Shown piece after piece: positions 18,970 through 57,102 of a DNA stretch of 57,254 bases (the first letter of the stretch is position 1; each line of letters starts with the position of its first letter). The DNA is from a virus. The position numbers were made by a program, and so were the translations under genes. The notes under the pieces are model-generated. The model was given only the letters and a program-made list of their open reading frames with translations. It made no database searches and was not told the DNA's origin. Location: positions 1 through 57,254 of the IMG/VR virus record IMGVR_UViG_3300042344_000496. One strand, 5' to 3'.

Positions 18970-21288
18970 ATGGCAGACATATGTACAAATTTTACAGTTC
19001 CTATCGATTTGAATCCAAAATTTGATATTATATGGTCTTTTGATTATTGTATTTTAGGTGAAGTAGATTCATCTGCTGGATTTACAACATTTCTCTATCA
19101 AAAAGGTGGAGACTTAAATCAAGGTGGTGAATATTCTTCATTAGGATATGGTCCAACTTCATCAAAACAAGGTATGAGTGGTGGTTATGTCTGTATAGCA
19201 TTAGATTCGGATGATCTTTTTTCAAAACCATTAAATAGACCAGCGTATGCACCATTTATAAAAAAACAACCAAGAAGTGGAACTGCTCCATTAGATTTAA
19301 CTGTAGAAGTTAAAGGAACTGCTCCATTAAGTTATCAATGGTATAGAAATGGTGATGCAATTCTGGGAGCAACAAATCCATCATATAGAGCATTAATAGA
19401 TGGAATGTATAGAGTACAAATCAGCAATTCTGTAGGCAGCATAAAATCTAATGAAGTATATGTTGTAGCATACCCATTTGTAAAAAGACAACCAATCGGT
19501 GGAGATTATCCCAAAACACTTTCTTTGGAATTAACTGGGACACCACCATTCGAATATCAATGGTATAAAAATGGTGTAGAAATTGATGAAGATGGCGACA
19601 AAGAAAATTTATTTACTTCAGAAGAAGGAGACTATAAAGTTAAAATAACTAATTTTGCTGGAAGTATTTTTTCAAATATTGCTACAGTAACAATTCCAAT
19701 AATATCACCAACAATACTAATACATCCTACTAATGGTTATCCTAATAAAACATTGACAGTTACAGCTAGTGGAACTGAACCATTTATATATGAATGGTAT
19801 AAAAATGGTGCATTAATATTTGGAGAATCTACATCTTCTTATAAAGCTACTGTTGAAGGACGATATAAAGTAAAAGTAAGTAATATATCAGGATTCCAAT
19901 ATTCAAATGATGCTCTCATAACAACTGCTCCAGTAGCCCCAACAATAACATTGCAACCAATAGGTGGTGAAGTTCCAATAGAACTTACTGTAAATGCTGT
20001 AGGAACTGCTCCATTAACGTATAAATGGATAAAGGATGACTTAATTACAGTAGGTAGTAATAAAAATTATCTAGCTACAGATGGTGCTAAATACAAAGTT
20101 GTAGTAAGTAATTTTGTCGGATCTGTGACTTCGAATTCTGTTGATGCTACTAACATACCACCATTACCAATAATTGTAACACATCCAGAAAGTGGTAATC
20201 TGCCAAAAGAATTGTATGTTGCAGCAACTAGCATTATCGACATAACATATCAATGGTATAAAAATGGAAATATAATTATCGGTGCTACAAATAACACATA
20301 TACACCAACAACTACAGGAACTTACAAAGTATCTGTAACAAATACTACTGGAACAGTTTATTCAAATGATGCAGTAGTTTCTCCAGCTGTTGCTGTAAGT
20401 ATAGTTTCATTTACTGGACCGGAATATTTTAATGAATCAGCAACTATAAATCCATCAGCAAATACTTATATAATAGAATTTGATAGATTAGTTAAACTTA
20501 AAGATAATAATTTTAAACAAGCATTTGCGGATAAAAATGTTAATGTTAAAAATATTATTCCAATAGATGCTTCTGGAGGGTTAGCAAAAAAATATAAAAT
20601 AGAAACCTTACGTTTAGATGAAAAGATACCATCTTATGGACTGTTAAATGTTAAAGAAGCTGAAATGACACCTACTAATAAATTTAAATTAGTGGCAAGT
20701 GACAAAATTAAAAATTTAAATGAAATAAATTTGAATTATAAAATTCATAATATACCACCAACTACATCTCCAAATATTGATCTATTAAATGTTGGATCAA
20801 ATAGTTTAATTAATTTAGGAAGCTGTATTAATAGTGATCACTACACAGATCCTTATATCAAAGGGCATTCTATAATTTTCATAAATACAACAAAATTAAA
20901 TTATCTATCAAAACTATCTAGATTTGATTCAGATGATAAAAAATCGACAACAATACTTTGGGAAGGTGTTTTCGAATATGATGGTAAAAATACAGAAGTT
21001 AATATGATTTGGGAATGTACAACATTCAAAGATTATCCATATAGATTTGAAATTAAAACACATCCTGAAAAATGGATTAAGAAAAAAATAGACGACAAAT
21101 ATCCACTAAATCAAATTAGGAAAACTGCTTCAGATGCAGCATATTTAAACTTTGATTTTGATGCTGGCAAATCTTATACAATAGAATATTGCTATTCAGT
21201 ATCAATACCAGAAAATATTTGCGAAGATCAATATGGCACTACAAATATTGCATACTCAAAAGCTGCAACATCTTTAGTTTTTAAATAG
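18970..21288 (+). CDS. Virion surface protein: lectin-like half domain plus five Ig-like domains
   Basis: 772 residues. Residues about 18-91 (KFDIIWSFDYCILGEVDSS, then LGYGP and CIALDSDDLFSKPLNRP) look like the first half of a lectin/concanavalin-like sandwich found in virion proteins of related phages. Five Ig-like domains follow at about 95-167, 170-243, 247-318, 323-393 and 399-471, each with a YxWYKNG-type core and YKVxVSN-type strand. Residues 480-772 form an unrecognised beta-rich domain. There is no signal peptide, so it is assembled from the cytoplasm onto the virion. The missing lectin half appears at the start of the next gene. Its own late promoter is perfect. Confidence 0.8.
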   Translation: MADICTNFTVPIDLNPKFDIIWSFDYCILGEVDSSAGFTTFLYQKGGDLNQGGEYSSLGYGPTSSKQGMSGGYVCIALDSDDLFSKPLNRPAYAPFIKKQPRSGTAPLDLTVEVKGTAPLSYQWYRNGDAILGATNPSYRALIDGMYRVQISNSVGSIKSNEVYVVAYPFVKRQPIGGDYPKTLSLELTGTPPFEYQWYKNGVEIDEDGDKENLFTSEEGDYKVKITNFAGSIFSNIATVTIPIISPTILIHPTNGYPNKTLTVTASGTEPFIYEWYKNGALIFGESTSSYKATVEGRYKVKVSNISGFQYSNDALITTAPVAPTITLQPIGGEVPIELTVNAVGTAPLTYKWIKDDLITVGSNKNYLATDGAKYKVVVSNFVGSVTSNSVDATNIPPLPIIVTHPESGNLPKELYVAATSIIDITYQWYKNGNIIIGATNNTYTPTTTGTYKVSVTNTTGTVYSNDAVVSPAVAVSIVSFTGPEYFNESATINPSANTYIIEFDRLVKLKDNNFKQAFADKNVNVKNIIPIDASGGLAKKYKIETLRLDEKIPSYGLLNVKEAEMTPTNKFKLVASDKIKNLNEINLNYKIHNIPPTTSPNIDLLNVGSNSLINLGSCINSDHYTDPYIKGHSIIFINTTKLNYLSKLSRFDSDDKKSTTILWEGVFEYDGKNTEVNMIWECTTFKDYPYRFEIKTHPEKWIKKKIDDKYPLNQIRKTASDAAYLNFDFDAGKSYTIEYCYSVSIPENICEDQYGTTNIAYSKAATSLVFK

Positions 21289-21303: not shown

Positions 21304-22176
21304 ATGCCTCCTTCATTAACCGTAAGAGCTAGAAGTATAGATGATGTTGATGATCCATTTCAACTCATAGAAACTAGCCCATTATCATCTTATGATATTA
21401 ATGGAATAACTAGGTCAGAAATATATACAAGATTGAAATTTTGTTTAACAGACTCTGGTAATACTCTATATCTTTATTTATTAGATAAAGGTACTAATGA
21501 ATACAATCTAATAAAACAAATAAAACCTAAAATGAATCTAGATTATGATCCATTAAATCCATTATTGTTAAATGTTGGATTTAGTTTTACCAGTCCATTG
21601 ATTACTGGTAGAAGTAGTGCCAAATGTTTTATTAAAAATGTTAATGTTCAAGGATTGAATAATACTTTAGTTAGTAGTTCATCATCATTTTCTACTCAAA
21701 ATGAAATAGAAGTTAAAACTAAACCATTGATTTTAATACATCCCATCGGAGGAAACTCTGCTAAAATGTTGACAACATTAGTTGTAGGAAGTGAACAAGT
21801 AAAATATAAATGGTATAAAAATAATGTTCTTATTGATGGAGCAGATTCTTCAAATTATTATGCTCAAGATTATGGGATATATAAATTAGTAGCTACTAAT
21901 TTAATGGGCAGTGTAACTTCAAATGAAGCAGAAATAAAGCAAATCGTCATCAATATTCCAACAATCATAACACAACCAACTGCTGGAACAACTCCAGCAT
22001 ATTTAACAGTAACAGCAGACGGAACTATGCCATTAAATTATCAATGGTATAAAGATAATATACCAGTACCATCTGGTAATTCTTCAACTCTTTATACAAA
22101 CGAAACAGGAAATTATTATGTAGTAGTATCTAATAGTGCTGGTAGTATTAATTCTAATACTGTGAATGTAACTTAA
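21304..22176 (+). CDS. Virion surface protein: second lectin-like half plus two Ig-like domains
   Basis: 290 residues. Residues 1-117 (PPSLTVRARSIDD, then YTRLKFCLTDSGNTLYLYLL, and VGFSFTSPL to NVNVQG) look like the second half of the same lectin-like sandwich that begins in the upstream gene. Two Ig-like domains follow at about 141-212 and 220-290, with KYKWYKNNVLI and NYQWYKDNIPV cores. It has its own late promoter. The two products could pair to rebuild one sandwich, or each half may be degenerate; both readings are inference. The stop is two bases from the stop of the convergent minus-strand gene. Confidence 0.75.
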   Translation: MPPSLTVRARSIDDVDDPFQLIETSPLSSYDINGITRSEIYTRLKFCLTDSGNTLYLYLLDKGTNEYNLIKQIKPKMNLDYDPLNPLLLNVGFSFTSPLITGRSSAKCFIKNVNVQGLNNTLVSSSSSFSTQNEIEVKTKPLILIHPIGGNSAKMLTTLVVGSEQVKYKWYKNNVLIDGADSSNYYAQDYGIYKLVATNLMGSVTSNEAEIKQIVINIPTIITQPTAGTTPAYLTVTADGTMPLNYQWYKDNIPVPSGNSSTLYTNETGNYYVVVSNSAGSINSNTVNVT

Positions 22177-37053: not shown

Positions 37054-37060
37054 TATTTAA
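37054..37060 (-). promoter_or_regulatory. Late promoter box TTAAATA
   Basis: Minus-strand TTAAATA, five-base gap (GATAC) to ATG 37048. It overlaps the last codons of the upstream glycosyltransferase gene. Confidence 0.65.
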
Positions 37061-38274
37061 TACGAATTGTATCTAGTAAGGTTCTTTCTATCCTTAGAGC
37101 CATAAGGTGTCGTAAACAACTCATAGTAACAATCTAGATTTTTATCTAATTCTAAGAATCTATCTTCTGCTACTTTTCTCCTTTTATGATAAGAATTCTT
37201 ATAATGTCCTGCCCTAAATACTTCTTGTTCAATCTTGGCAATCATTTCTTCGCCACTATTAAACTTAATTTCAGCATCCTTATAAGTAATCATATCCTGA
37301 CATGCTACAGGAATTCCAAATGCACAAGCTTCGATGTATTTGATGTCACTCTTAGATTTATTAAAGTTATTATCTTGAAGTGGTGCAACCATCATTTGGA
37401 CATTGAGATCATAGATTTTCTTAGGGAAATCATATAATCTACACCAAGGATGGAATTCGATTTCCTTGTTTTGTACATAAGGATGTAATTGAAGAGGATA
37501 TGCTCCAATGAAAATCCATTGGAATTTATGTCTAGTATCAATTATAGCTTTAATAACATGTTCGAAATCATCCTTTTGATTGACCTTGTTTTCAACATCA
37601 AAATGAGCACCAGAACCCGAATACAAGATCCTAGGCTTTTTCTTATTGTTATCATAATCTCTATTTAATTTATTAGGATCGAAATAATTTCCAATCCAGA
37701 ATCTTGCTGGGAAGTTTGGTATAACTGAAATTTCTTGTTTACCAGTCTTTTCTCTATATAAATCTTTCATGAAATCACATGTAACTGAAACTTCATCACA
37801 CATATTCATGATGTCTATAACATTCTTCCTAATTTCAGGAGAAGTAAATGCTCCTTTAAATTTATTAAAATCTGGAATATCTTCAGCAAATACTACGTCA
37901 TCAACTTCGTAGATAATCTTGAATCCCATCTGGGATTGAATATTCTTTAAAAATTCAACGAACTTTTTCTGATCTGATGTAGCTTGTCTTTGTAATCTAA
38001 CAGCTTTAACATTCCTATACCAATTAGGATCACCTATCATTACGAATGTATCAGTAACTGTCATCCTAGCCTGATAATTTAACATATGGGATGGCCAACC
38101 CATTCTATACAGACCACAACCACTAAAGTCTGCTGTATATTGTACAACTCTTGGTAAATCTAATTCTGGACTCTTTTCAAATGATTTCTTATCTTGTGGT
38201 TGTTCACTAACCCTAGTTACAGGAAGCTTTACATCTTGTTTTTGAAAAGGTATCGGAGGCTTAAAGTGCAGCAT
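37057..38274 (-). CDS. Glycosyltransferase, GT4-like (GT-B fold)
   Basis: 405 residues from ATG 38272-38274, set by TATAAATC five bases upstream; a TTG 11 codons earlier lies upstream of the predicted transcription start. The first Rossmann half includes YTADFSGCGLYRMGWPSHML and IIYEVDDVVFAEDIPDF; the second has RILYSGSGAHFDVEN, FQWIFIGAYPL and the donor-site pattern KYIEACAFGIPVAC (E-x7-like). It could glycosylate virion proteins. The late promoter fits that; acceptor and sugar are unknown. Confidence 0.75.
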   Translation of the reverse strand: MLHFKPPIPFQKQDVKLPVTRVSEQPQDKKSFEKSPELDLPRVVQYTADFSGCGLYRMGWPSHMLNYQARMTVTDTFVMIGDPNWYRNVKAVRLQRQATSDQKKFVEFLKNIQSQMGFKIIYEVDDVVFAEDIPDFNKFKGAFTSPEIRKNVIDIMNMCDEVSVTCDFMKDLYREKTGKQEISVIPNFPARFWIGNYFDPNKLNRDYDNNKKKPRILYSGSGAHFDVENKVNQKDDFEHVIKAIIDTRHKFQWIFIGAYPLQLHPYVQNKEIEFHPWCRLYDFPKKIYDLNVQMMVAPLQDNNFNKSKSDIKYIEACAFGIPVACQDMITYKDAEIKFNSGEEMIAKIEQEVFRAGHYKNSYHKRRKVAEDRFLELDKNLDCYYELFTTPYGSKDRKNLTRYNSY

Positions 38275-38279
38275 ATTAT

Positions 38280-38287
38280 GATTTATA
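38280..38287 (-). promoter_or_regulatory. Late promoter box TATAAATC
   Basis: Minus-strand TATAAATC, five-base gap (ATAAT) to ATG 38274. It decides this start against the upstream TTG. Confidence 0.65.
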
Positions 38288-38308
38288 AATATGCTGCACT
38301 TTTTCAAG

Positions 38309-48523: not shown

Positions 48524-49226
48524 TGGAGCACCCAATACTGGTAAACAAAACTTTGTTGAAGACTTTTCCAAAGAATGGAATATGTATTCTATTCATAAAG
48601 CAGATAAGTCTAAACCGGGATTTACTAAGGATGAATTGGTGACTGAACTAAATTCTCGTATTGATACCTTACAGCAGTTTAAAAGAGATGATAATATCAT
48701 TTTCGATAACTCTCCTTTAGATTACTTAGTTTATTCATTTTGGGCAGCAGATAAGGGTATTAAGGGCTTTGATAAGGATCATTTGAATACTATCATTCCA
48801 TTAGTTAGAGAATCTATGCGATTTGTTGATATTGTATTCTTTACTCCTATTTCATTATCTTCACCAATTGAAGATGAGAAGGAAGATGTTGTTAGAGATG
48901 AATTGGATAATATCTATAAAGCTATTGTAGCTAATTATCATACAAATCTAGAAGCTGATATGTTCTTCCCTAAAGATGATTGTCCTTCTGTTATTGATGT
49001 TTTTGGCACTAGAGAGCAAAGAATTTTATTGGTTAAAAACTATTTGAGTACTAATGGTGATGTATTTGGTTCAGAAGAAGACAGTATTTTAAATCCTGAA
49101 AACTTACAGGACATGGAAAATATCTTAAAATCTCAGATTGAGATTAATGATAATGAGCAGAGAGAACTTCGAACTGAAGCAATGAAGAAGGTTGTTACTG
49201 CTTATTCTAAGAAGCTTAAGCTTTAG
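48507..49226 (+). CDS. P-loop NTPase / nucleotide kinase-like protein
   Basis: 239 residues. The N-terminus MRICISGAPNTGKQNFVEDF has Walker A GAPNTGK (about 7-13); DNIIFDNSPLDYLVYSFWAA resembles the Walker B and substrate region of NadR- or thymidylate-kinase-like enzymes, and VDIVFFTPISL a later core strand. The C-terminal 60 residues are helical and acidic. The substrate is unknown. Its TAG overlaps the TAA of the convergent fibre gene at 49223-49226. Confidence 0.75.
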   Translation: MRICISGAPNTGKQNFVEDFSKEWNMYSIHKADKSKPGFTKDELVTELNSRIDTLQQFKRDDNIIFDNSPLDYLVYSFWAADKGIKGFDKDHLNTIIPLVRESMRFVDIVFFTPISLSSPIEDEKEDVVRDELDNIYKAIVANYHTNLEADMFFPKDDCPSVIDVFGTREQRILLVKNYLSTNGDVFGSEEDSILNPENLQDMENILKSQIEINDNEQRELRTEAMKKVVTAYSKKLKL

Positions 49227-50032
49227 TAATCTTTTAATACTAAAATTGTATAAGTAGCTTCTTGTTCAGCACTATACTCTGTGGTGTCTTGTACTAAAGC
49301 TTCTATATACTTAGAAAGAACATTTGTAAATAGAGTATTAATGTTCATAGTACTTAGTGATGTATTTCCGTTTAGTGATGTTATAGCGTCTGCTAGTATG
49401 GTTTGATCTACTTTTAATTTTGGTTTTCTAAATGAAGCTTCTATATCAACTTTATATTGATTAGTTGTTGGATTTATAATTTCCGCTTTAGTTACGGAAA
49501 TGCTTTTTGTATTTTCTACTGAATAATTATTTTTAGGTATTATAATTATATCTTCAATTTGAATGTCTAATGTTTCTGGAACATCTAATAATAAACTAGT
49601 AGTTCTAGCATTTTGTAAAATTGAGATGCTTTGTATTGATTTAAAGATTTTGTTATCTAAACTGGCTTCTAATTGATTAGTTTTTGTTACTAGATCACTA
49701 ATACTAGCTGTTATTGTATCTGTATCTGTTTTTGTTGGTAAACTGCCTGTTTGACTCTGTAGTGACAATAAATCGCTTTTAAGAGAAGATAGTTCGGAAT
49801 TTGTTGAACCTATGTGAGTATATAAATCTGTAGCTGATAAAGTTAAAGAATCAATATTTGATTTATTTGTAGTAACTAATGGAGTAATTAATGTATTATC
49901 AATTGGGATAATAATATCTGAGAAATTGATGATTTGAGTCCCAGTAGATGTTTCTATGATAAAATAATCCCCAGCCCTAGCTTCTGTAGCCTGTGGTAAA
50001 TCTGTAATATTGATAAAAACATCTTGAGCCAT
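49223..50032 (-). CDS. Virion fibre-like structural protein
   Basis: 269 residues. The N-terminus VFINITDLPQATEARAGDYF followed by TGTQIINFSDIIIPIDN is the small beta domain seen at the start of many phage fibre or baseplate accessory proteins (memory). Residues 60-135 are a coiled-coil-like shaft rich in Ser, Thr, Leu and Asp; the C-terminus is beta then helix. TATAAATA eight bases before the ATG indicates late expression. It is divergent from the glycan cassette. Confidence 0.7.
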   Translation of the reverse strand: MAQDVFINITDLPQATEARAGDYFIIETSTGTQIINFSDIIIPIDNTLITPLVTTNKSNIDSLTLSATDLYTHIGSTNSELSSLKSDLLSLQSQTGSLPTKTDTDTITASISDLVTKTNQLEASLDNKIFKSIQSISILQNARTTSLLLDVPETLDIQIEDIIIIPKNNYSVENTKSISVTKAEIINPTTNQYKVDIEASFRKPKLKVDQTILADAITSLNGNTSLSTMNINTLFTNVLSKYIEALVQDTTEYSAEQEATYTILVLKDY

Positions 50033-50103: not shown

Positions 50104-50664
50104 ATGACTTCTAAGATAACGTTTATTATACCTTCAGTTAATAGACCATCTTTAAAAAACACTTTACGTTCATTAGTAAAACAAACCAATCCTAATTGGG
50201 AATGTATAGTAATTTATGATGGTGTTGATGGGCCAAGATTTGATGATGATAGAATAAAAATAATCAAACATGAAAAGCTTGGTTTATTTGGTCCAGCTAA
50301 TGGACAGGCTGGTTTAGTTAGAAATGTTGGTATTAAAGAAGCTAAAACTGAATGGATAGGATTTTTAGATGACGATGATTCTATAAATGAAAATTATGTT
50401 GAAACATTGTTTTCGAAGTATGTTGATAATGATTTTGTTGTTTGGAGAATGAAATATAGCAATGGGTTGGTTTTACCACCATTTGAATTAAATGAGTTAG
50501 TTTTTGCTACCGTTGGAATTTCATTTTGTTATAAAAATAAATTCGATGGACTTCTATTTGAAAGAAATAGAGATGGTGAAGATTTTGATTTTTTAACCAA
50601 ATTAAAAGATCTTAGTAAAAACTATATTATCGCTCCAGAAGTATATTATAACGTTAGACATTAA
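50104..50664 (+). CDS. Glycosyltransferase family 2
   Basis: 186 residues, a compact GT-A catalytic domain. TFIIPSVNRPSLKNTLRSL is the GT2 opening strand and nucleotide site, CIVIYDGVDGPRFDD the second, GQAGLVRNVGIKEA the third, and EWIGFLDDDDSINENY the DxD metal site. It lacks the C-terminal extension of larger GT2 enzymes. Start of the glycan cassette; next gene two bases away. Donor and acceptor unknown. Confidence 0.85.
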   Translation: MTSKITFIIPSVNRPSLKNTLRSLVKQTNPNWECIVIYDGVDGPRFDDDRIKIIKHEKLGLFGPANGQAGLVRNVGIKEAKTEWIGFLDDDDSINENYVETLFSKYVDNDFVVWRMKYSNGLVLPPFELNELVFATVGISFCYKNKFDGLLFERNRDGEDFDFLTKLKDLSKNYIIAPEVYYNVRH

Positions 50665-50666
50665 TT

Positions 50667-51299
50667 ATGAAATTCTTTGAAAATTTCGATAAAGTTTATT
50701 GTATAAATTTGGATAGAAGATATGATAGATTTCTTAAATTCAAACAATGTATTGAAAAATATGATTTAGGTGAGTTTGAGAGAATATCCGCTGTTGATGG
50801 GGGGTATTTAAATCCTAGAGAATATAATTCTTCTCTTAAAAATGGAGAATTAGGTCTTCTATTAACGAATGAGAAAATATTACTTAATGCTAAAGCTAAC
50901 AATTATTCTTCAATTCTTATATTAGAGGATGATTGTACATTTACGGATGATATTTTAAATTATAAAAATCTTTTGGGATTCTTACCAAAAGATTGGGATA
51001 TGTATTATATGGGTGGCAATCATAATACACACATGGGGTTGCCAATTCCACCATTTGTTAATGAACGAGTTATTAAAATATCTAATACATATTCTACACA
51101 TTTCGTAGCTATAAAAAATAGTATATATGATGATGTTATTTCTCTGATTAAAATGTATAAGTATCCATTAGACGTTGCATACACTGCTATACAAAAAAGT
51201 AAAAATGTATATTGTTATTATCCCGGAATGGCTAAACAAATTTCAGATTTTTCAGATATTCAAAACATGACAACAGATTATGATTGGTTGATTAAATGA
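50667..51299 (+). CDS. Glycosyltransferase family 25
   Basis: 210 residues. KVYCINLDRRYDRFLKFKQC and FERISAVDGG are the GT25 opening; LGLLLTNEKILLNA and SILILEDDCTFTDD hold the conserved acidic site; THFVAIKNSIYD comes later. GT25 enzymes add galactose or related sugars to lipooligosaccharide or collagen-type acceptors. Cassette gene, two bases after GT2. Confidence 0.88.
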   Translation: MKFFENFDKVYCINLDRRYDRFLKFKQCIEKYDLGEFERISAVDGGYLNPREYNSSLKNGELGLLLTNEKILLNAKANNYSSILILEDDCTFTDDILNYKNLLGFLPKDWDMYYMGGNHNTHMGLPIPPFVNERVIKISNTYSTHFVAIKNSIYDDVISLIKMYKYPLDVAYTAIQKSKNVYCYYPGMAKQISDFSDIQNMTTDYDWLIK

Positions 51300-51308
51300 C
51301 TTATAACT

Positions 51309-52019
51309 ATGAATATAGGATTATTGATAATTTGCACTGGTAGGTATAATATTTTTTTGAATAGTTTATATGAATCTTGCGAGAAACATTTTTTACCTAA
51401 ACATAAAAAAACGTATTATGTATTCACCGAGGGAGATGTTCCGATTAATGAAAATGTAATTAAAATATATCAAGAATATATGGGATTTCCTAATGATACG
51501 CTTAAAAGATTTCATTTATTTCATAAGAATAACAATCTTCTTGGAAGAGAAGATTATTTATTTTTTTTAAATGCTAATATGTTATGCGTATCTGAAATTA
51601 ATGAGGAAATCATCCCATCACAAAATAATGATAATTTAATGGCTGTAAATCATCCCGGCTTTTACAATAAAAGTAATCTGGATTTTACGTATGAAAGGAA
51701 TATATCATCTAATTTTTATATACCTATTGGACAGGGTAAACATTATTATCAGGGATGTTTTAATGGTGGATCTTCTACCGAATTTTTAAAAATGTCTTAT
51801 CAATTATCTAAGTTGATTGATGAGGACGAGATGAAAGGAATTATACCTATTTGGTGGGATGAATCTGCATTAAATTGGTATCTTAGGGATAGAAATCCTC
51901 TATTAATAAATTCTGGATATGCTTATCCAGAAGGATGGGAATTACCAATGGATAAAAAAATTATTCAAAGAGATAAAAATAAACATGGTGGGTATAATTA
52001 CTTAAGAAAGATTATATAA
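51309..52019 (+). CDS. Glycosyltransferase family 6 (ABO / alpha-1,3-Gal(NAc) transferase type), NxN form
   Basis: 236 residues. GT6 features in order: YYVFTEGDVP, EDYLFFLNANMLCVSEI, VNHPGFY, YYQGCFNGGSSTEFLKM and PIWWDESALNWYL. The DxD metal motif of animal GT6 enzymes is N88-A89-N90 here (51570-51578), as in the bacterial GT6 group reported to work without metal (for example from Bacteroides ovatus). It probably adds Gal or GalNAc in alpha-1,3 linkage, often next to an alpha-1,2-fucose; the GT11 gene two genes on would provide that kind of substrate (inference). No signal anchor, so cytoplasmic. Confidence 0.87.
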   Translation: MNIGLLIICTGRYNIFLNSLYESCEKHFLPKHKKTYYVFTEGDVPINENVIKIYQEYMGFPNDTLKRFHLFHKNNNLLGREDYLFFLNANMLCVSEINEEIIPSQNNDNLMAVNHPGFYNKSNLDFTYERNISSNFYIPIGQGKHYYQGCFNGGSSTEFLKMSYQLSKLIDEDEMKGIIPIWWDESALNWYLRDRNPLLINSGYAYPEGWELPMDKKIIQRDKNKHGGYNYLRKII

Positions 52020-52022
52020 TAT

Positions 52023-52640
52023 ATGGGAATTTCAAACATTTTATATCCATTATTTTTAAAAGATTTAGAAGAAATCCAAAAACCATTACGTGAATGTAAT
52101 TTAATTGAATTAGGGATACAAGAAAATATACAAACAGGAAATTTTATTAGAAATGAATTGAAAGATTCTTTTAAGCAATATTTGAGTTTAGATTTACATG
52201 AAATTGATGGTGTTACTAAATGTGATCTTTCTCAATACGATCCAGAGAAATATAATTGCGATATCATTACAAATTTTGGAACTAGTGAACATGTAGAATA
52301 TGAAGATGGACAATATAATTGTTGGTTGAATATTCATTCGTGGTTAAAAGTTGGCGGGATTTCAATACATGAAATACCAAAAATAAATAATTGGTCTGGT
52401 CATTGTAGATATTATTGCGATTTTTCATTTTTTCAAAAATTCCAAAATTTTGGATATTCTATTATAAAATTGCAAGATAATTACTATCAATCTAATGGTT
52501 CTTTGGTGTATTGTGTATTAAAAAAGATTGAAGATGTAAATTTTATGGATAAAAAATCATTTTTCGAATCTATTATCATTGATAATAATATTAATCTATC
52601 GTCAATTAATAAATTAAACAATCCTAAAAATTTGATGTAA
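52023..52640 (+). CDS. Class I SAM-dependent methyltransferase-like protein
   Basis: 205 residues. The Rossmann-type pattern is weak at the N-terminus (CNLIELGIQENIQTG), then YLSLDLHEIDGVTKCDLSQY, DIITNFGTSEHVE and LKVGGISIHEIP (motifs II-IV and the post-core strand). An unusual NWSGHCRYYCDFSFF follows. It probably methylates a sugar or a small substrate in the same glycan. It starts three bases after GT6. The family is assigned at fold level only. Confidence 0.7.
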   Translation: MGISNILYPLFLKDLEEIQKPLRECNLIELGIQENIQTGNFIRNELKDSFKQYLSLDLHEIDGVTKCDLSQYDPEKYNCDIITNFGTSEHVEYEDGQYNCWLNIHSWLKVGGISIHEIPKINNWSGHCRYYCDFSFFQKFQNFGYSIIKLQDNYYQSNGSLVYCVLKKIEDVNFMDKKSFFESIIIDNNINLSSINKLNNPKNLM

Positions 52641-52644
52641 TATT

Positions 52645-53247
52645 ATGGAAATAGTAATTAAAGAACACACATTGTTTTCAGAACTTTTTAATGATGAACT
52701 AGTCATAATTGATTTGGGAGCATGTAGAGGAGAATTTATAGAAAAAATTAATGAAATGTTTAATGTAAAAAAAGCAATTTTAGTGGAAGCCAATCCTACT
52801 AATTATTCTAAATTAATTCGTAGAAATAATTATATTCTTTATAATAATGCTATTTCTGATATAAATGGATCTAGTATTATATTTTATGAAGATGAGAAAT
52901 CTCCTTATAATGGATCGTATGTTTTTAATTATTTTTCGGGTAAACCACATGATATTAAAACAATAACTTTGGAGCAAATTTTTATTGATAATAATATAGA
53001 TTATGTTGACATATTGAAAGTTGATATTGAAGGTGCTGAATATGATTTATTAAATTCTATTTCTGATGAAATATATTCTAAAATAAAACAACTTACTATA
53101 GAATTTCATGATTTTATAGACTCCTCTTATAAACAAAAAACGAATGATATAATTCGTAAATTAAACTCTTTAGGTTTTAAACATAAGTCTAAACCTATCA
53201 ATTATATGAATAATTCGGAAAATTATGATGTAATTTTTTATAGATAA
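52645..53247 (+). CDS. FkbM-family methyltransferase
   Basis: 200 residues. VIIDLGACRGEFIEKIN is the SAM-binding glycine motif, KKAILVEANPTNYSKL the acidic second motif, NNAISDINGSSIIFY and KTITLEQIF then YVDILKVDIEGAEYDLL the FkbM hallmark. FkbM enzymes O-methylate sugars or polyketides. Methylation may cap the phage-directed glycan. Confidence 0.88.
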   Translation: MEIVIKEHTLFSELFNDELVIIDLGACRGEFIEKINEMFNVKKAILVEANPTNYSKLIRRNNYILYNNAISDINGSSIIFYEDEKSPYNGSYVFNYFSGKPHDIKTITLEQIFIDNNIDYVDILKVDIEGAEYDLLNSISDEIYSKIKQLTIEFHDFIDSSYKQKTNDIIRKLNSLGFKHKSKPINYMNNSENYDVIFYR

Positions 53248-53248
53248 T

Positions 53249-54037
53249 ATGAGTAAACATATAATTTATTCTGAATTGAAGGGTGGCTTGGGGAATATGT
53301 TATTTCAAATAGCTGCTGCTGTTTCATTAGGTATTGAACAAAATAAGGAAGTAATCTTTATAGATTCTACTCATCAAGGAACTATCCATAAAAGTGTAAA
53401 TTTTTATTTTGATAATATTTTTAGAAAGCTAAAGTTTTCCAATGTAATTTATGAAAACATTTTTTATTCTGAACAAAATTTTTCATATCAAAAAATACCA
53501 AATGTTAATAATAACATTAGATTGAATGGATACTTTCAGAGTGAAAAATATTTTCTACCAGTTAAGCAACAAATATTAGATTTATTTTCTATGGATGTAG
53601 AATCTAAGAAATTTATATCTGATAAATATTTTGAATTTAACTTCGATGATTTTTGTTCCATTCATGTTAGAAGAGGTGACTATTTAAAGTATCCAAATAT
53701 CCATCCTGTTTGTGAACTTAATTATTATACACAATGTGTATCTAATATAAACTCTAAAAATTTATTTATATTTTCTGATGATATAGATTGGTGTATGTCT
53801 AACTTTGATTTTAAAGATAAAAACGTATTCTTTTCTTCAGAAAATAGAGATTATATAGATTTGTGGATTATGTCATTGTGTAGAGAGAATATTATTGCGA
53901 ATTCCACATTTTCTTGGTGGGGGGCTTGGCTTAATAAGCATGAACATAAAAAAGTGTTTTATCCAAAGAGGTGGTTTGGATCTTCTATAAATCATGATAC
54001 TAAAGATTTGTGTCCTAATGATTGGATAAGTGTATAA
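53249..54037 (+). CDS. Alpha-1,2-fucosyltransferase-type enzyme (GT11)
   Basis: 262 residues. GGLGNMLFQIAAAVSLG (about 11-27) opens the GT11 fold; FCSIHVRRGDYLKYPNIHP carries the HxRRGD nucleotide-sugar motif; NSTFSWWGAWLN is the third hallmark. It transfers L-fucose, or in some bacteria a fucose-like sugar such as colitose, from its GDP form. The next three genes make GDP-linked sugars, so donor and transferase are encoded together. Confidence 0.92.
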   Translation: MSKHIIYSELKGGLGNMLFQIAAAVSLGIEQNKEVIFIDSTHQGTIHKSVNFYFDNIFRKLKFSNVIYENIFYSEQNFSYQKIPNVNNNIRLNGYFQSEKYFLPVKQQILDLFSMDVESKKFISDKYFEFNFDDFCSIHVRRGDYLKYPNIHPVCELNYYTQCVSNINSKNLFIFSDDIDWCMSNFDFKDKNVFFSSENRDYIDLWIMSLCRENIIANSTFSWWGAWLNKHEHKKVFYPKRWFGSSINHDTKDLCPNDWISV

Positions 54038-54040
54038 TTT

Positions 54041-54964
54041 ATGAAAATTTTAATTACTGGAGCTTATGGTATGGTTGGATCTTCTCTTAGGAAAATATTA
54101 GGAATAGATCATATCTATCATAATAGAAAAGCAGCTGATCTTCTTAATAAAGAAGAAACCGAGAGATATATTACTAATAGTGTTTTAAACTTAGGTGTTG
54201 ATACTATAATTCATTGTGCTGCAAAAGTTGGTGGTGTGCAAGCCAATTCGTCAAATAATGAAACATTTTTTATTGAAAATTACATTATTAATAATAATGT
54301 AATAGATGCTGCTCTTAAAAATAAAGTTAAAAATTTTGTAAATCTTTCTTCTACTTGTATATTTCCAAACGAAAATATAACATATCCATTAACCGCAGAT
54401 CAAATAGATGTAGGTAAACCACACATATCCAATCATGGTTATTCTTATGCAAAAAGAATCTCTGGATATCAAACTAAGAGTATTCGATTAATGACTGGAT
54501 TAAATTGGATTACTGTTGTTCCAACAAATGTATATGGTCCAAATGATAACTTCAATCCAAACTACAGTCACATTATACCCGGTATAATAATGCGTGCTTA
54601 TAATTGTAAAAAGAATAATGAAAAATTAGTTGTTTGGGGTGATGGGAGTCCATTAAGACAATTTATACATACTGATGATTTAGCGAAAAACATTCTTTGG
54701 GCTATTGAAAATTGGAATTCTGAAATTCCATTTATGGCTATAAATGAAAAGGAGTATTCTGTTATGGATGTAGTTAAAAATGTAGCAGATGCTTTTAAAA
54801 TTAATCGAAATGATTTAATTTTCGATTCGACAAAACCTAGCGGACAATTTAGGAAACCAGCTAAAACGGATATTCCAGATAGTTATAAATTTATTGAATT
54901 AAAGGATGGATTGACAAGCACCATAGAATGGGTAAATTCAAATTATAACTTTATAAGAAAATGA
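54041..54964 (+). CDS. fcl: GDP-L-fucose synthase / GDP-L-colitose synthase-type epimerase-reductase
   Basis: 307 residues. Short-chain dehydrogenase fold: ILITGAYGMVGSSL NADP site; AAKVGGVQANS; catalytic Ser/Cys in NLSSTCIFP (S104, C106), YSYAK (Y134, K138) and His177 in NYSHIIPG, all matching E. coli Fcl positions. It epimerises C3/C5 (or C5 alone) and reduces C4 of GDP-4-keto-6-deoxymannose, giving GDP-L-fucose; the ColC homologue does the same on the 3-deoxy form. Motifs cannot tell the two apart. It overlaps the ColD-like gene by four bases. Confidence 0.9.
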   Translation: MKILITGAYGMVGSSLRKILGIDHIYHNRKAADLLNKEETERYITNSVLNLGVDTIIHCAAKVGGVQANSSNNETFFIENYIINNNVIDAALKNKVKNFVNLSSTCIFPNENITYPLTADQIDVGKPHISNHGYSYAKRISGYQTKSIRLMTGLNWITVVPTNVYGPNDNFNPNYSHIIPGIIMRAYNCKKNNEKLVVWGDGSPLRQFIHTDDLAKNILWAIENWNSEIPFMAINEKEYSVMDVVKNVADAFKINRNDLIFDSTKPSGQFRKPAKTDIPDSYKFIELKDGLTSTIEWVNSNYNFIRK

Positions 54965-56121
54965 AAAAAATTGATCTGGTTCAAGACACTATAGATAATA
55001 AAGATATAGACAATCTCATAGAATGGCTTAAAACATATCCTCGTCTAACTAAAGGACCAAAAACATTAGAGTTTGAAAGTAAATGGTCTGAATGGTTGGG
55101 AACCAAATATTCAGTATTTGTAAATTCTGGATCGTCGGCAAATTTGATGATGATATATTCTTTGAAAGTTTTAAATAAACTTAAAAACAATAAGATATGT
55201 GTACCATCTTTATGTTGGGCTACAGACTTAGCTCCAGTTCTTCAATTTGATTTACAACCAATATTAATAGATTGTAATTTAGAAAATCTATCTGTTGATA
55301 TTAATCACTTAGAAAAAGTATTCATTGAAGAATCTCCATCAGTATTAATTTTAGTTTCTGTATTGGGGTTATCTCCTGATATGAATAAGATTGTAGAATT
55401 GTGTAAAAAGTATGATGTAATCCTTTTAGAAGATAATTGTGAATCTCAAGGAACTAAATTCAATAATATTAAACTTGGAAATTTTGGTCTGATGTCTTCG
55501 TTCTCTACATATTTTGGTCATACTATGTCTACGATTGAAGGAGGGATGATTTGTACAAATAATCATGAAATATATGAAACATTACTTCAACTGAGAAGTC
55601 ATGGATGGGATAGAGATTTGTCCAAAGAGACTCAACTTAATCTTAGAAGTGAATGGGGTGTTTCGAATTTTTCGGCATTATATACTTTTTATATACCCGG
55701 GTTTAATTTAAGAAGTACTGATTTACAAGCTCATATTGGTTTGAGGCAATTGGATAAGGTTGACGATATGATTGAAAAAAGATTTTTGAATTTTTTATCT
55801 TACAAATCTATATTAGAAAATAGAGTTTGGTTTCCTAAAACATTTAAAAATGAATACACCTCAAATTTTGCTATACCAGTTATTACTGATACAATAGAAC
55901 AAAAAAATAAATTAATTGAATTACTTAATAAAAATGAAGTAGCATCTAGACCATTAATATCTGGATCTATGGGGACTCAGCCATTTTATAAAAGAAAATA
56001 CGGCGAATACATTTTGCCTAATTGTTCTATTGTCGATGATAGAGGTATATATGTTCCAAATCATGATAAAATGAATAAAGAAGATGTTGAAAAAATTTGT
56101 TCTTTAATACTTAGTGTTTAA
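54961..56121 (+). CDS. colD: ColD-type GDP-4-keto-6-deoxymannose 3-dehydratase (DegT fold, Lys to His)
   Basis: 386 residues, DegT/DnrJ/EryC1 fold type I PLP enzyme: VNSGSSANLMMI, VPSLCWATDLAPVL, ILLEDNCESQGTKFNN, then FSTYFGHTMSTIEGG. In sugar aminotransferases this last motif has the PLP-binding Lys six residues before EGG; here it is His187 (55519-55521). That is the ColD signature: the histidine serves as the base and the enzyme removes the 3-hydroxyl with glutamate as amino donor. LRSHGWDRDL and PGFNLRSTDLQAHIG also match ColD as I remember it. With Gmd upstream in the pathway the product would be GDP-4-keto-3,6-dideoxymannose. Confidence 0.87.
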   Translation: MKKIDLVQDTIDNKDIDNLIEWLKTYPRLTKGPKTLEFESKWSEWLGTKYSVFVNSGSSANLMMIYSLKVLNKLKNNKICVPSLCWATDLAPVLQFDLQPILIDCNLENLSVDINHLEKVFIEESPSVLILVSVLGLSPDMNKIVELCKKYDVILLEDNCESQGTKFNNIKLGNFGLMSSFSTYFGHTMSTIEGGMICTNNHEIYETLLQLRSHGWDRDLSKETQLNLRSEWGVSNFSALYTFYIPGFNLRSTDLQAHIGLRQLDKVDDMIEKRFLNFLSYKSILENRVWFPKTFKNEYTSNFAIPVITDTIEQKNKLIELLNKNEVASRPLISGSMGTQPFYKRKYGEYILPNCSIVDDRGIYVPNHDKMNKEDVEKICSLILSV

Positions 56122-56124
56122 TTT

Positions 56125-57102
56125 ATGGATAAGAAAGTTGCATTAATAACTGGAATAAATGGTCAGGATGGTTCATATCTTTCCGAATTACTTTTGGAAA
56201 ATGGTTATGAAGTTCATGGCGTTTTAAAGAGAAACTCCATTTCAGAAAATCAAACTGCTAGAATCGACCATTTAATGGACAAAATTAATTTACATTATGG
56301 TGATTTGACTGATATATCATCTTTGATGTCTATTATTAAAAGATCCAATCCAGCAGAAATATATAATTTAGCGGCACAATCACATGTGAGAATTTCATTC
56401 GAACAACCCATTTATACAGCTAATGTTACTGGATTGGGAACATTAAATCTATTGGAATCTGTTAGATTAACTAATGATAAGATAAAAATTTATCAAGCTT
56501 CTTCTTCTGAGATGTTTGGAAACAGTATAGATTCTGATGGGTTTCAAAGAGAAACAACACCGCTCAATCCAGTATCACCATATGGATGTTCTAAAGTTTT
56601 TTCATACAATATATGTAGAAACTATAGGAATTCTTACAACATGTTTATTTCAAATGGAATACTTTTTAATCATGAGTCTCCAAGAAGAGGCACAAATTTT
56701 GTGACAAACAAAGTTTGTAAAGAAGCTGTAAAAATAAAATTAGGTTTATCTAAAAATCTTAAGTTAGGCAATTTAAATGCAACTAGAGATTGGGGTCATG
56801 CTAAAGATTATGTTAAAGCTATGATGGCGATTCTGCAATTGGAACATTCTGATGATTATGTGTGTTCTACAGGTATATCTCATTCTGTAAGAGATTTGTG
56901 TGAATATGTTTTCTCATCTTTAAATATGGATTATAATTTTTATGTCACCTTAGATGAAAAATTTTTAAGACCAGAAGAATTACACGATTTGAAAGGAGAT
57001 TGTAGTAAACTTAAAATAGCTACTGGATGGAAACCAGAATATTCATTCGAACAAATGTTGGATGAAATGATAGCTCATTGGATGGATTTGTATAAGAAAT
57101 AA
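56125..57102 (+). CDS. gmd: GDP-mannose 4,6-dehydratase
   Basis: 325 residues, shorter than E. coli Gmd (373), as in other phage forms. ALITGINGQDGSYLSELLLE is the NADP motif; IYNLAAQSHVRISFEQP and ASSSEMFGN (with Glu129) precede SPYGCSK (Tyr153, Lys157); LFNHESPRRGTNFV and NLNATRDWGHAKDYV are typical Gmd. It converts GDP-mannose to GDP-4-keto-6-deoxymannose, the substrate of both the Fcl-type and ColD-type neighbours. Last gene of the cassette; three bases after ColD. Confidence 0.95.
   Translation: MDKKVALITGINGQDGSYLSELLLENGYEVHGVLKRNSISENQTARIDHLMDKINLHYGDLTDISSLMSIIKRSNPAEIYNLAAQSHVRISFEQPIYTANVTGLGTLNLLESVRLTNDKIKIYQASSSEMFGNSIDSDGFQRETTPLNPVSPYGCSKVFSYNICRNYRNSYNMFISNGILFNHESPRRGTNFVTNKVCKEAVKIKLGLSKNLKLGNLNATRDWGHAKDYVKAMMAILQLEHSDDYVCSTGISHSVRDLCEYVFSSLNMDYNFYVTLDEKFLRPEELHDLKGDCSKLKIATGWKPEYSFEQMLDEMIAHWMDLYKK

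Follow-up and report, generated by a model that had tools for sequence, protein, structure and literature searches.

An NxN-type GT6 glycosyltransferase in a phage operon that appears able to make colitose

The closest described counterpart of the enzyme considered here is BoGT6a of Bacteroides ovatus, for which the residues holding UDP-GalNAc and the products have been listed, Asn95, Lys231 and Arg243 taking part in nucleotide and diphosphate binding without a metal (PMC3961637). Two cyanophage GT6 enzymes had been mentioned in the literature by 2014 (PMC3961637), and the sugar cluster of P-SSM2 has been treated in its own right (PMC7824862). The co-occurrence of GT6 and GT11 genes in phages (P-SSM2, ACG-2014f and Synechococcus phages), in some cases with gmd, is already known, and genes for the GDP-fucose route have been reported from S-SCSM1 and phages like it (PMC9602691). 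On the bacterial side, E. coli O55 has the GT11 enzyme WbgN, an alpha-1,2 colitosyltransferase (PMC11987014, PMC12723683), and both WbgN and FUT2 take either GDP-colitose or GDP-fucose (PMC11987014). Here we describe a phage operon in which an NxN-type GT6 occurs together with a GT11 and an apparent route to GDP-L-colitose. We did not find this combination of parts, or a metal-free-type GT6 in a phage, described, and in the open-access literature we found no report linking colitose to phages.

The phage and its sugar operon

The window, by which we mean the whole stretch of DNA analysed, is a 57-kb IMG/VR record (IMGVR_UViG_3300042344_000496; 57,254 nucleotides). It encodes a terminase, a tail sheath, a gp43-type polymerase and UvsX, as well as a primase, a DnaB-type helicase and SbcC/D, and is by this gene content judged to be a T4-like phage; its polymerase and terminase are about 30-38% identical to those of named phages. 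Greater similarity is seen with short IMG/VR contigs (L179-L181 and L186, the last on the same contig as L179), at 88% (polymerase) and 98% (PhoH) protein identity. Because the polymerase relatives L179-L185, including a 236-kb contig, give no GT6 match and carry only distant Gmd-like genes, the sugar operon looks accessory. Elsewhere in the window, a glycosyltransferase-like ORF (37057-38307, minus strand, phrog_7162) lies amid replication genes, between SbcC and a polymerase-adjoining ORF, and Hoc-like or Ig-type repeat proteins are encoded at 18970-21288 and 21304-22176.

The sugar cluster occupies one strand from 50104 to 57102, and its nine genes (Table 1), in the order GT2-GT25-GT6-MT-FkbM-GT11-Fcl-ColD-Gmd, follow one another with gaps of no more than about 10 bases or with small overlaps. 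A preliminary description of this DNA had set an NxN-type GT6 beside a GT11 in a phage. The phage is genuine and the two genes do share an operon, but they are not adjacent, two methyltransferase-like genes intervening. The GT25-like protein is a candidate for placing the beta-Gal acceptor. The first of the methyltransferase-like proteins has no family match in Pfam or NCBIfam. As for the second, two other viral loci carry single in-frame ORFs in which FkbM is joined to an NxN GT6 (L016:7392-8702 and L017:4739-5998), with the FkbM half 56-58% identical to the window's separate FkbM protein, and this fusion suggests that the methyltransferase and the GT6 work on the same glycan. For the GT11, a structure-database search for solved relatives returned chance matches only. 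Just before the cluster, on the opposite strand, lies an ORF of 269 aa (49223-50032, minus strand); it found no match among 50,697 phage records, and the search gave no support to its being a tail fibre.

Table 1. Genes of the sugar cluster and GT6 sites, in window coordinates
Feature	Coordinates	Strand	Basis
GT2-type glycosyltransferase	50104..50664	+	PF00535; 67% identical in syntenic L086
GT25-like glycosyltransferase	50667..51299	+	PF01755 E=2.1e-4, under curated cut-off; 48% identical in L086
GT6 glycosyltransferase, 236 aa, NxN type	51309..52019	+	PF03414, NF041524, AF2 model, Foldseek
N88-A89-N90, where the metal-binding DxD is expected	51570..51578	+	codons AAT GCT AAT and alignments
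Q148-G149-C150, donor-specificity loop (human ABO 266-268)	51750..51758	+	alignment with ABO 'YYMGAFFGG'; rule PMC4692239
W182-W183-D184-E185, catalytic motif, His to Trp at 183	51852..51863	+	codons and alignments
K223, equivalent of BoGT6a Lys231 (diphosphate, leaving group)	51975..51977	+	alignment; role PMC3961637
SAM-methyltransferase-like	52023..52640	+	assigned by us from sequence; similar to ORFs at 12-13.7 kb of L013
FkbM methyltransferase	52645..53247	+	PF05050, TIGR01444
GT11, alpha-1,2-fucosyl/colitosyltransferase-type	53249..54037	+	PF01531 90.2 bits vs 23.9; HVRRGDY at residue 139
Fcl/ColC-like epimerase-reductase	54041..54964	+	PDB GDP-L-fucose synthase 4e5y E=6e-56; YSYAK motif
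ColD-type, putative GDP-4-keto-6-deoxymannose 3-dehydratase	54961..56121	+	PDB E. coli ColD 2gms E=1.3e-55; His187
GDP-mannose 4,6-dehydratase (Gmd)	56125..57102	+	PF16363 391 bits; TIGR01472 391 bits, just under cut-off 415

Metal site and donor pocket of the GT6

The GT6 reading frame is intact and complete, and its product matches both the Pfam family (E=1.6e-27, 96.6 bits against a cut-off of 25) and the NCBIfam model (266.7 bits against 250). The closest solved structure is BoGT6a (4ayj, E=4.9e-62). The AlphaFold (AF2) model, at pLDDT 96.6, has the GT-A fold of GT6 (Foldseek 4cj8, TM 0.95, rmsd 1.3); it lies within 1.3 Å of the BoGT6a-UDP-GalNAc complex over 243 columns and gives TM values of about 0.85 against ABO structures. 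The comparison of a predicted structure with BoGT6a that had been proposed at the outset thus came out in favour of the assignment, and the protein is predicted to be a retaining alpha-1,3-galactosyl (or related) transferase.

The asparagines read earlier at the metal site are confirmed by their codons and by alignment, in which they fall opposite N95-A96-N97 of BoGT6a and the DVD of the human ABO transferase. The further statement that all GT6 motifs are present did not hold, as the HDE motif, altered before the catalytic Glu, reads W183-D184-E185 and Phe60 stands in for the Trp of the 'GWP' motif, as it does in 9 other relatives. The catalytic Asp-Glu itself (D191-E192 of BoGT6a) is retained. 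At the W183 site, equivalent to ABO His301 and highly conserved in GT6 without strictly defining the family, 167 of 171 relatives have His (91/91 viral sequences and 76/80 bacterial ones, the latter being the best 80 of 156), and Trp occurs only in L120 and L154. Because the window's codon, TGG at 51855-51857, is at least two changes away from any His codon, we reject a single-base error as its source. Nor is the change tied to colitose: L120 has both, L154 has the Trp without a ColD, and L017 and L036 have a ColD with His. The locus L120:10001-12893, on a Bacteroidota contig, carries a GT6 with Trp-Trp-Asp-Glu like that of the window, adjoining a His-type ColD and a GT11.

The C-terminal cations with which BoGT6a binds the diphosphate, Lys231 and Arg243, align with K223 and R233, and because this Lys and Arg are kept, the window GT6 is likely to be metal-independent. 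By the same alignment, 13 of the ligand contacts of BoGT6a are kept (T10, Y13, T70, R73, N95, A96, H122, T134, W189, D191, E192, K231 and R243 in its numbering). As to a possible transfer to 2-fucosyl- or 2-colitosyl-galactose, the window GT6 keeps H115 and T127 in this alignment and shares its operon with a GT11. Five contacts are changed: Trp66 to Phe60, Asn69 to Asp63, Gly157 to Cys150, His190 to Trp183 and His239 to Tyr229. 

Regarding the donor, it has been hypothesized that an enzyme must have Gly at ABO position 266 or 268 to transfer GalNAc (PMC4692239). The window GT6 has Gly at neither equivalent, and under this human A/B rule Q148 and C150 would disfavour UDP-GalNAc, making UDP-Gal (B-like) or an unusual donor more likely. 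In a human enzyme complex, the equivalent of the W183 His contacts the donor O6 (PMC4692239), and W183 would by this comparison change the donor pocket. Q148 and C150 speak against the A-type (GalNAc) product that had been entertained for this enzyme. With W183, F60, D63, C150 and Y229 all in or near the donor pocket, the enzyme could use another donor or have low activity.

GT6 loci in other viruses and the GT6 tree

The viral comparison set comprises 91 GT6 loci found with an alignment query; scanning viral contigs with the window GT6 as a lone query gave no matches. NxN is present in 7 of the 91, namely L013-L017 and the two doubtful loci L003 and L012 (MT838506 and MT836157, short faecal 'Bacteriophage sp.' records). 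The latter two group inside Gemmiger and are rejected as phage GT6, their DNA being probably bacterial or prophage. A phage terminase lies on the same record as the NxN GT6 in L014 and L015, and the contig that carries L013 is viral and 194 kb long; for L016 and L017, both short, a phage origin is putative.

A His-type ColD relative occurs in 13 viral GT6 loci, 12 of which also match GT11, Gmd and Fcl; these 12 include L036 and L086, both with a terminase on the record. The order in L086 (3255-11363) is GT2-GT25-GT6-GT11-Fcl-ColD-Gmd, as in the window, and its GT6 is of DxD type; L036 (6292-11439) has the window's colitose genes, with a DxD GT6 located elsewhere. Because the syntenic L086 cluster carries a DxD enzyme, the GT6 slot has been swapped and takes either metal type. 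The GT6 enzymes nearest to that of the window, those of L013, L014 and L015, come from loci where the stretches compared contain no ColD, so the GT6 would seem to have no requirement for colitose. Two other loci may be recorded here. A huge-phage record (L004:8989-10113) encodes, next to its GT6, a second dehydratase of His type that resembles E1, which suggests another dideoxy sugar, and in the stretch of a viral contig tested at L020:8001-8693 the GT6 match reads through one stop codon.

The GT6 tree was built with the motif columns removed and rooted on human ABO (one vertebrate sequence); its bacterial sample, the best 80 of 156 matches to an NxN query, is biased towards NxN. The window GT6 joins L013-L015 with support of 100/98, and so the phylogeny against other phage GT6 sequences suggested at the outset places it with phage enzymes; even with the motif columns removed it falls among NxN sequences. 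A single change between NxN and DxD suffices, the split between the two having weak support (85/63). The 55 NxN sequences from bacteria all fall in a single nested clade (89/84), and the first branches of the NxN set are viral. In this topology the phage NxN branches lie, with moderate support, at the base of the bacterial clade, which suggests that the phage form may be the older one; in an AU test, a single clade of the six phage NxN sequences was not rejected (p 0.233), so that their paraphyly is at most tentative. That NxN arose in phages from the DxD form common there, and then passed from phages to bacteria, is a tentative and rather improbable scenario.

Proposed colitose route, alternatives and known systems

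The [2Fe-2S] cysteines of E1/SpnQ are spaced C-X57-C-X-C-X7-C, and this motif was not found in the window's ColD-like protein. That protein has His187 where aminotransferases have the PLP lysine, a replacement that is the hallmark of 3-dehydratases (PMC8987622). In a ColD tree the His group has an SH-aLRT of 96, the window protein grouping with ColD apart from Lys-type enzymes, and the ColD-containing part has an SH-aLRT of 94 against three E1-looking sequences, in a tree without an E1 reference. The gene adjoins that for Gmd. The Fcl-like protein matches NF047922 (E=1.9e-55, under the cut-off), and sequence tools do not separate Fcl from ColC. Together, the Gmd, ColD-type and Fcl-like proteins would make up a full GDP-L-colitose gene set, and the operon appears able to make colitose, although a fucose product may be made as well. 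The gene for a ColD-type dehydratase that has the catalytic His is flanked by those for Fcl and Gmd, which makes colitose the likeliest reading, and what had been a passing guess at a dideoxy sugar is raised accordingly in standing. Of the ABO- or H-like trisaccharide that went with it, the H/B-like part is retained, with the colitose version likelier than an H-antigen built on ordinary fucose.

We therefore favor a phage glycan-decoration operon in which colitose is made and attached and an NxN GT6 adds the cap, giving a 3-deoxy H/B-type trisaccharide, and we see about an even chance that this is correct. The gene content, motifs, predicted fold, phage synteny and FkbM-GT6 fusion from which it starts are observed. 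We infer the enzymatic steps, their order and their target as follows. Gmd would convert host GDP-mannose to GDP-4-keto-6-deoxymannose, from which the ColD-type enzyme would remove the 3-OH, and the Fcl/ColC-like enzyme would then epimerize and reduce the product to GDP-L-colitose. The GT11 would transfer colitose (or fucose) alpha-1,2 onto a galactose, possibly one added by the GT25-like enzyme. The GT6 would add an alpha-1,3 hexose, Gal being likelier than GalNAc, from a UDP-sugar and without metal, Lys223 and Arg233 replacing Mn2+. The resulting trisaccharide, a 3-deoxy H/B type to which the FkbM enzyme may add an O-methyl group, would most likely be placed on a glycan of the host surface, where it could change that surface and exclude superinfection; the virion is the other possible destination.

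It is possible, if rather unlikely, that the product is built on ordinary fucose, with Gmd and Fcl supplying GDP-L-fucose, the GT11 forming Fuc-alpha1,2-Gal, the GT6 capping it, and the ColD-like protein serving a separate colitose branch or standing idle. The Fcl protein is indeed closest to GDP-L-fucose synthases, P-SSM2 and L013-L015 combine a GT6 with Gmd and Fcl (L013 without Fcl) and show no His-type ColD in the stretches compared, and acceptance of both donors is known from WbgN and FUT2 (PMC11987014). Against this stands the position of the ColD gene, which overlaps fcl by 4 bases and lies between fcl and gmd, an arrangement by which the keto intermediate would be pulled towards the 3-deoxy route; L008, L017, L036 and S-CAM7 repeat the gene set with ColD. 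We consider it very unlikely that the window GT6 is a degenerate, inactive remnant. The replacement of a near-invariant His by Trp and the Phe at 60 would fit such decay, but the frame is open over its full length, D184/E185 and K223 are kept, the operon is compact, the score exceeds the NCBIfam cut-off, and Trp has appeared at the W183 site independently in L120 and L154.

The destination of the glycan is less readily assigned. In bacterial O-antigen loci, those GT6 and GT11 enzymes that have been characterized make lipid-linked glycans, which speaks against a virion target (tail fibres, or Hoc-like Ig-domain head proteins, in place of host LPS), as do the possibility of export through a host flippase and ligase and the neighboring ORF 49223-50032 with no phage match. 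On the other side, the clusters of S-CAM7 and ACG-2014f adjoin or lie near a tail fibre gene, the two Ig/Hoc-like proteins of the window are possible glycosylation targets, and no membrane-spanning protein, flippase or polymerase family was seen within the sugar cluster; a virion target is accordingly a serious candidate, if a somewhat doubtful one. That the host surface is modified so as to block rival phages, the view taken in the literature of P-SSM2-type cyanophage LPS clusters (PMC7824862), might equally prove right or wrong, no experiment having been found in any of these phages.

On our preferred reading, phage-made colitose glycans are indicated, and a deoxy H/B-type antigen from phages, which we have not found reported, may exist. 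The occurrence of metal-dependent-type and metal-free-type GT6 in one slot of an otherwise syntenic phage operon offers a natural experiment on metal loss by GT-A enzymes. Should the basal position of the phage NxN sequences be real, bacteria may have obtained their blood-group-like synthases through phages.

Among known systems, BoGT6a (4ayj, 4cj8; PMC3961637) shares with the window enzyme the NxN, the fold (TM 0.95), the Lys and Arg for diphosphate binding and 44-45% identity, but it is a GalNAc transferase with the loop A-G-G and His190, whereas the window enzyme has Q-G-C and Trp183 and is phage-borne. The cyanophage GT6 of P-SSM2, ACG-2014f and S-8S56 likewise belong to T4-like phages and to sugar clusters with a GT11, together with gmd in the first two but not in S-8S56; the aligned cyanophage GT6 are, however, all DxD and about 31-34% identical to that of the window. 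The gmd-fcl-dehydratase-GT11 cluster of S-CAM7 and ACG-2014f has the same four activities in one operon, its dehydratase being annotated only as a putative CDP-type dehydrase, an aminotransferase or a hypothetical protein. There the ColD is only about 33% identical to the window's, the GT6 of ACG-2014f is DxD, and a GT6 annotation is absent from the stretch of S-CAM7 compared. E. coli O55/O111, with WbgN, resemble the window in the Gmd-ColD-ColC route and the GT11 colitosyltransferase; unlike it, these are chromosomal O-antigen loci, and no GT6 cap is described for them in the literature compared. Nearest in gene content are the IMG/VR contigs L086, L036 and L017, in which GT6, GT11, Fcl, ColD and Gmd occur together as in the window, with a DxD GT6 in L086 and L036 and an NxN GT6 fused to FkbM in L017, where the window has a separate NxN enzyme.
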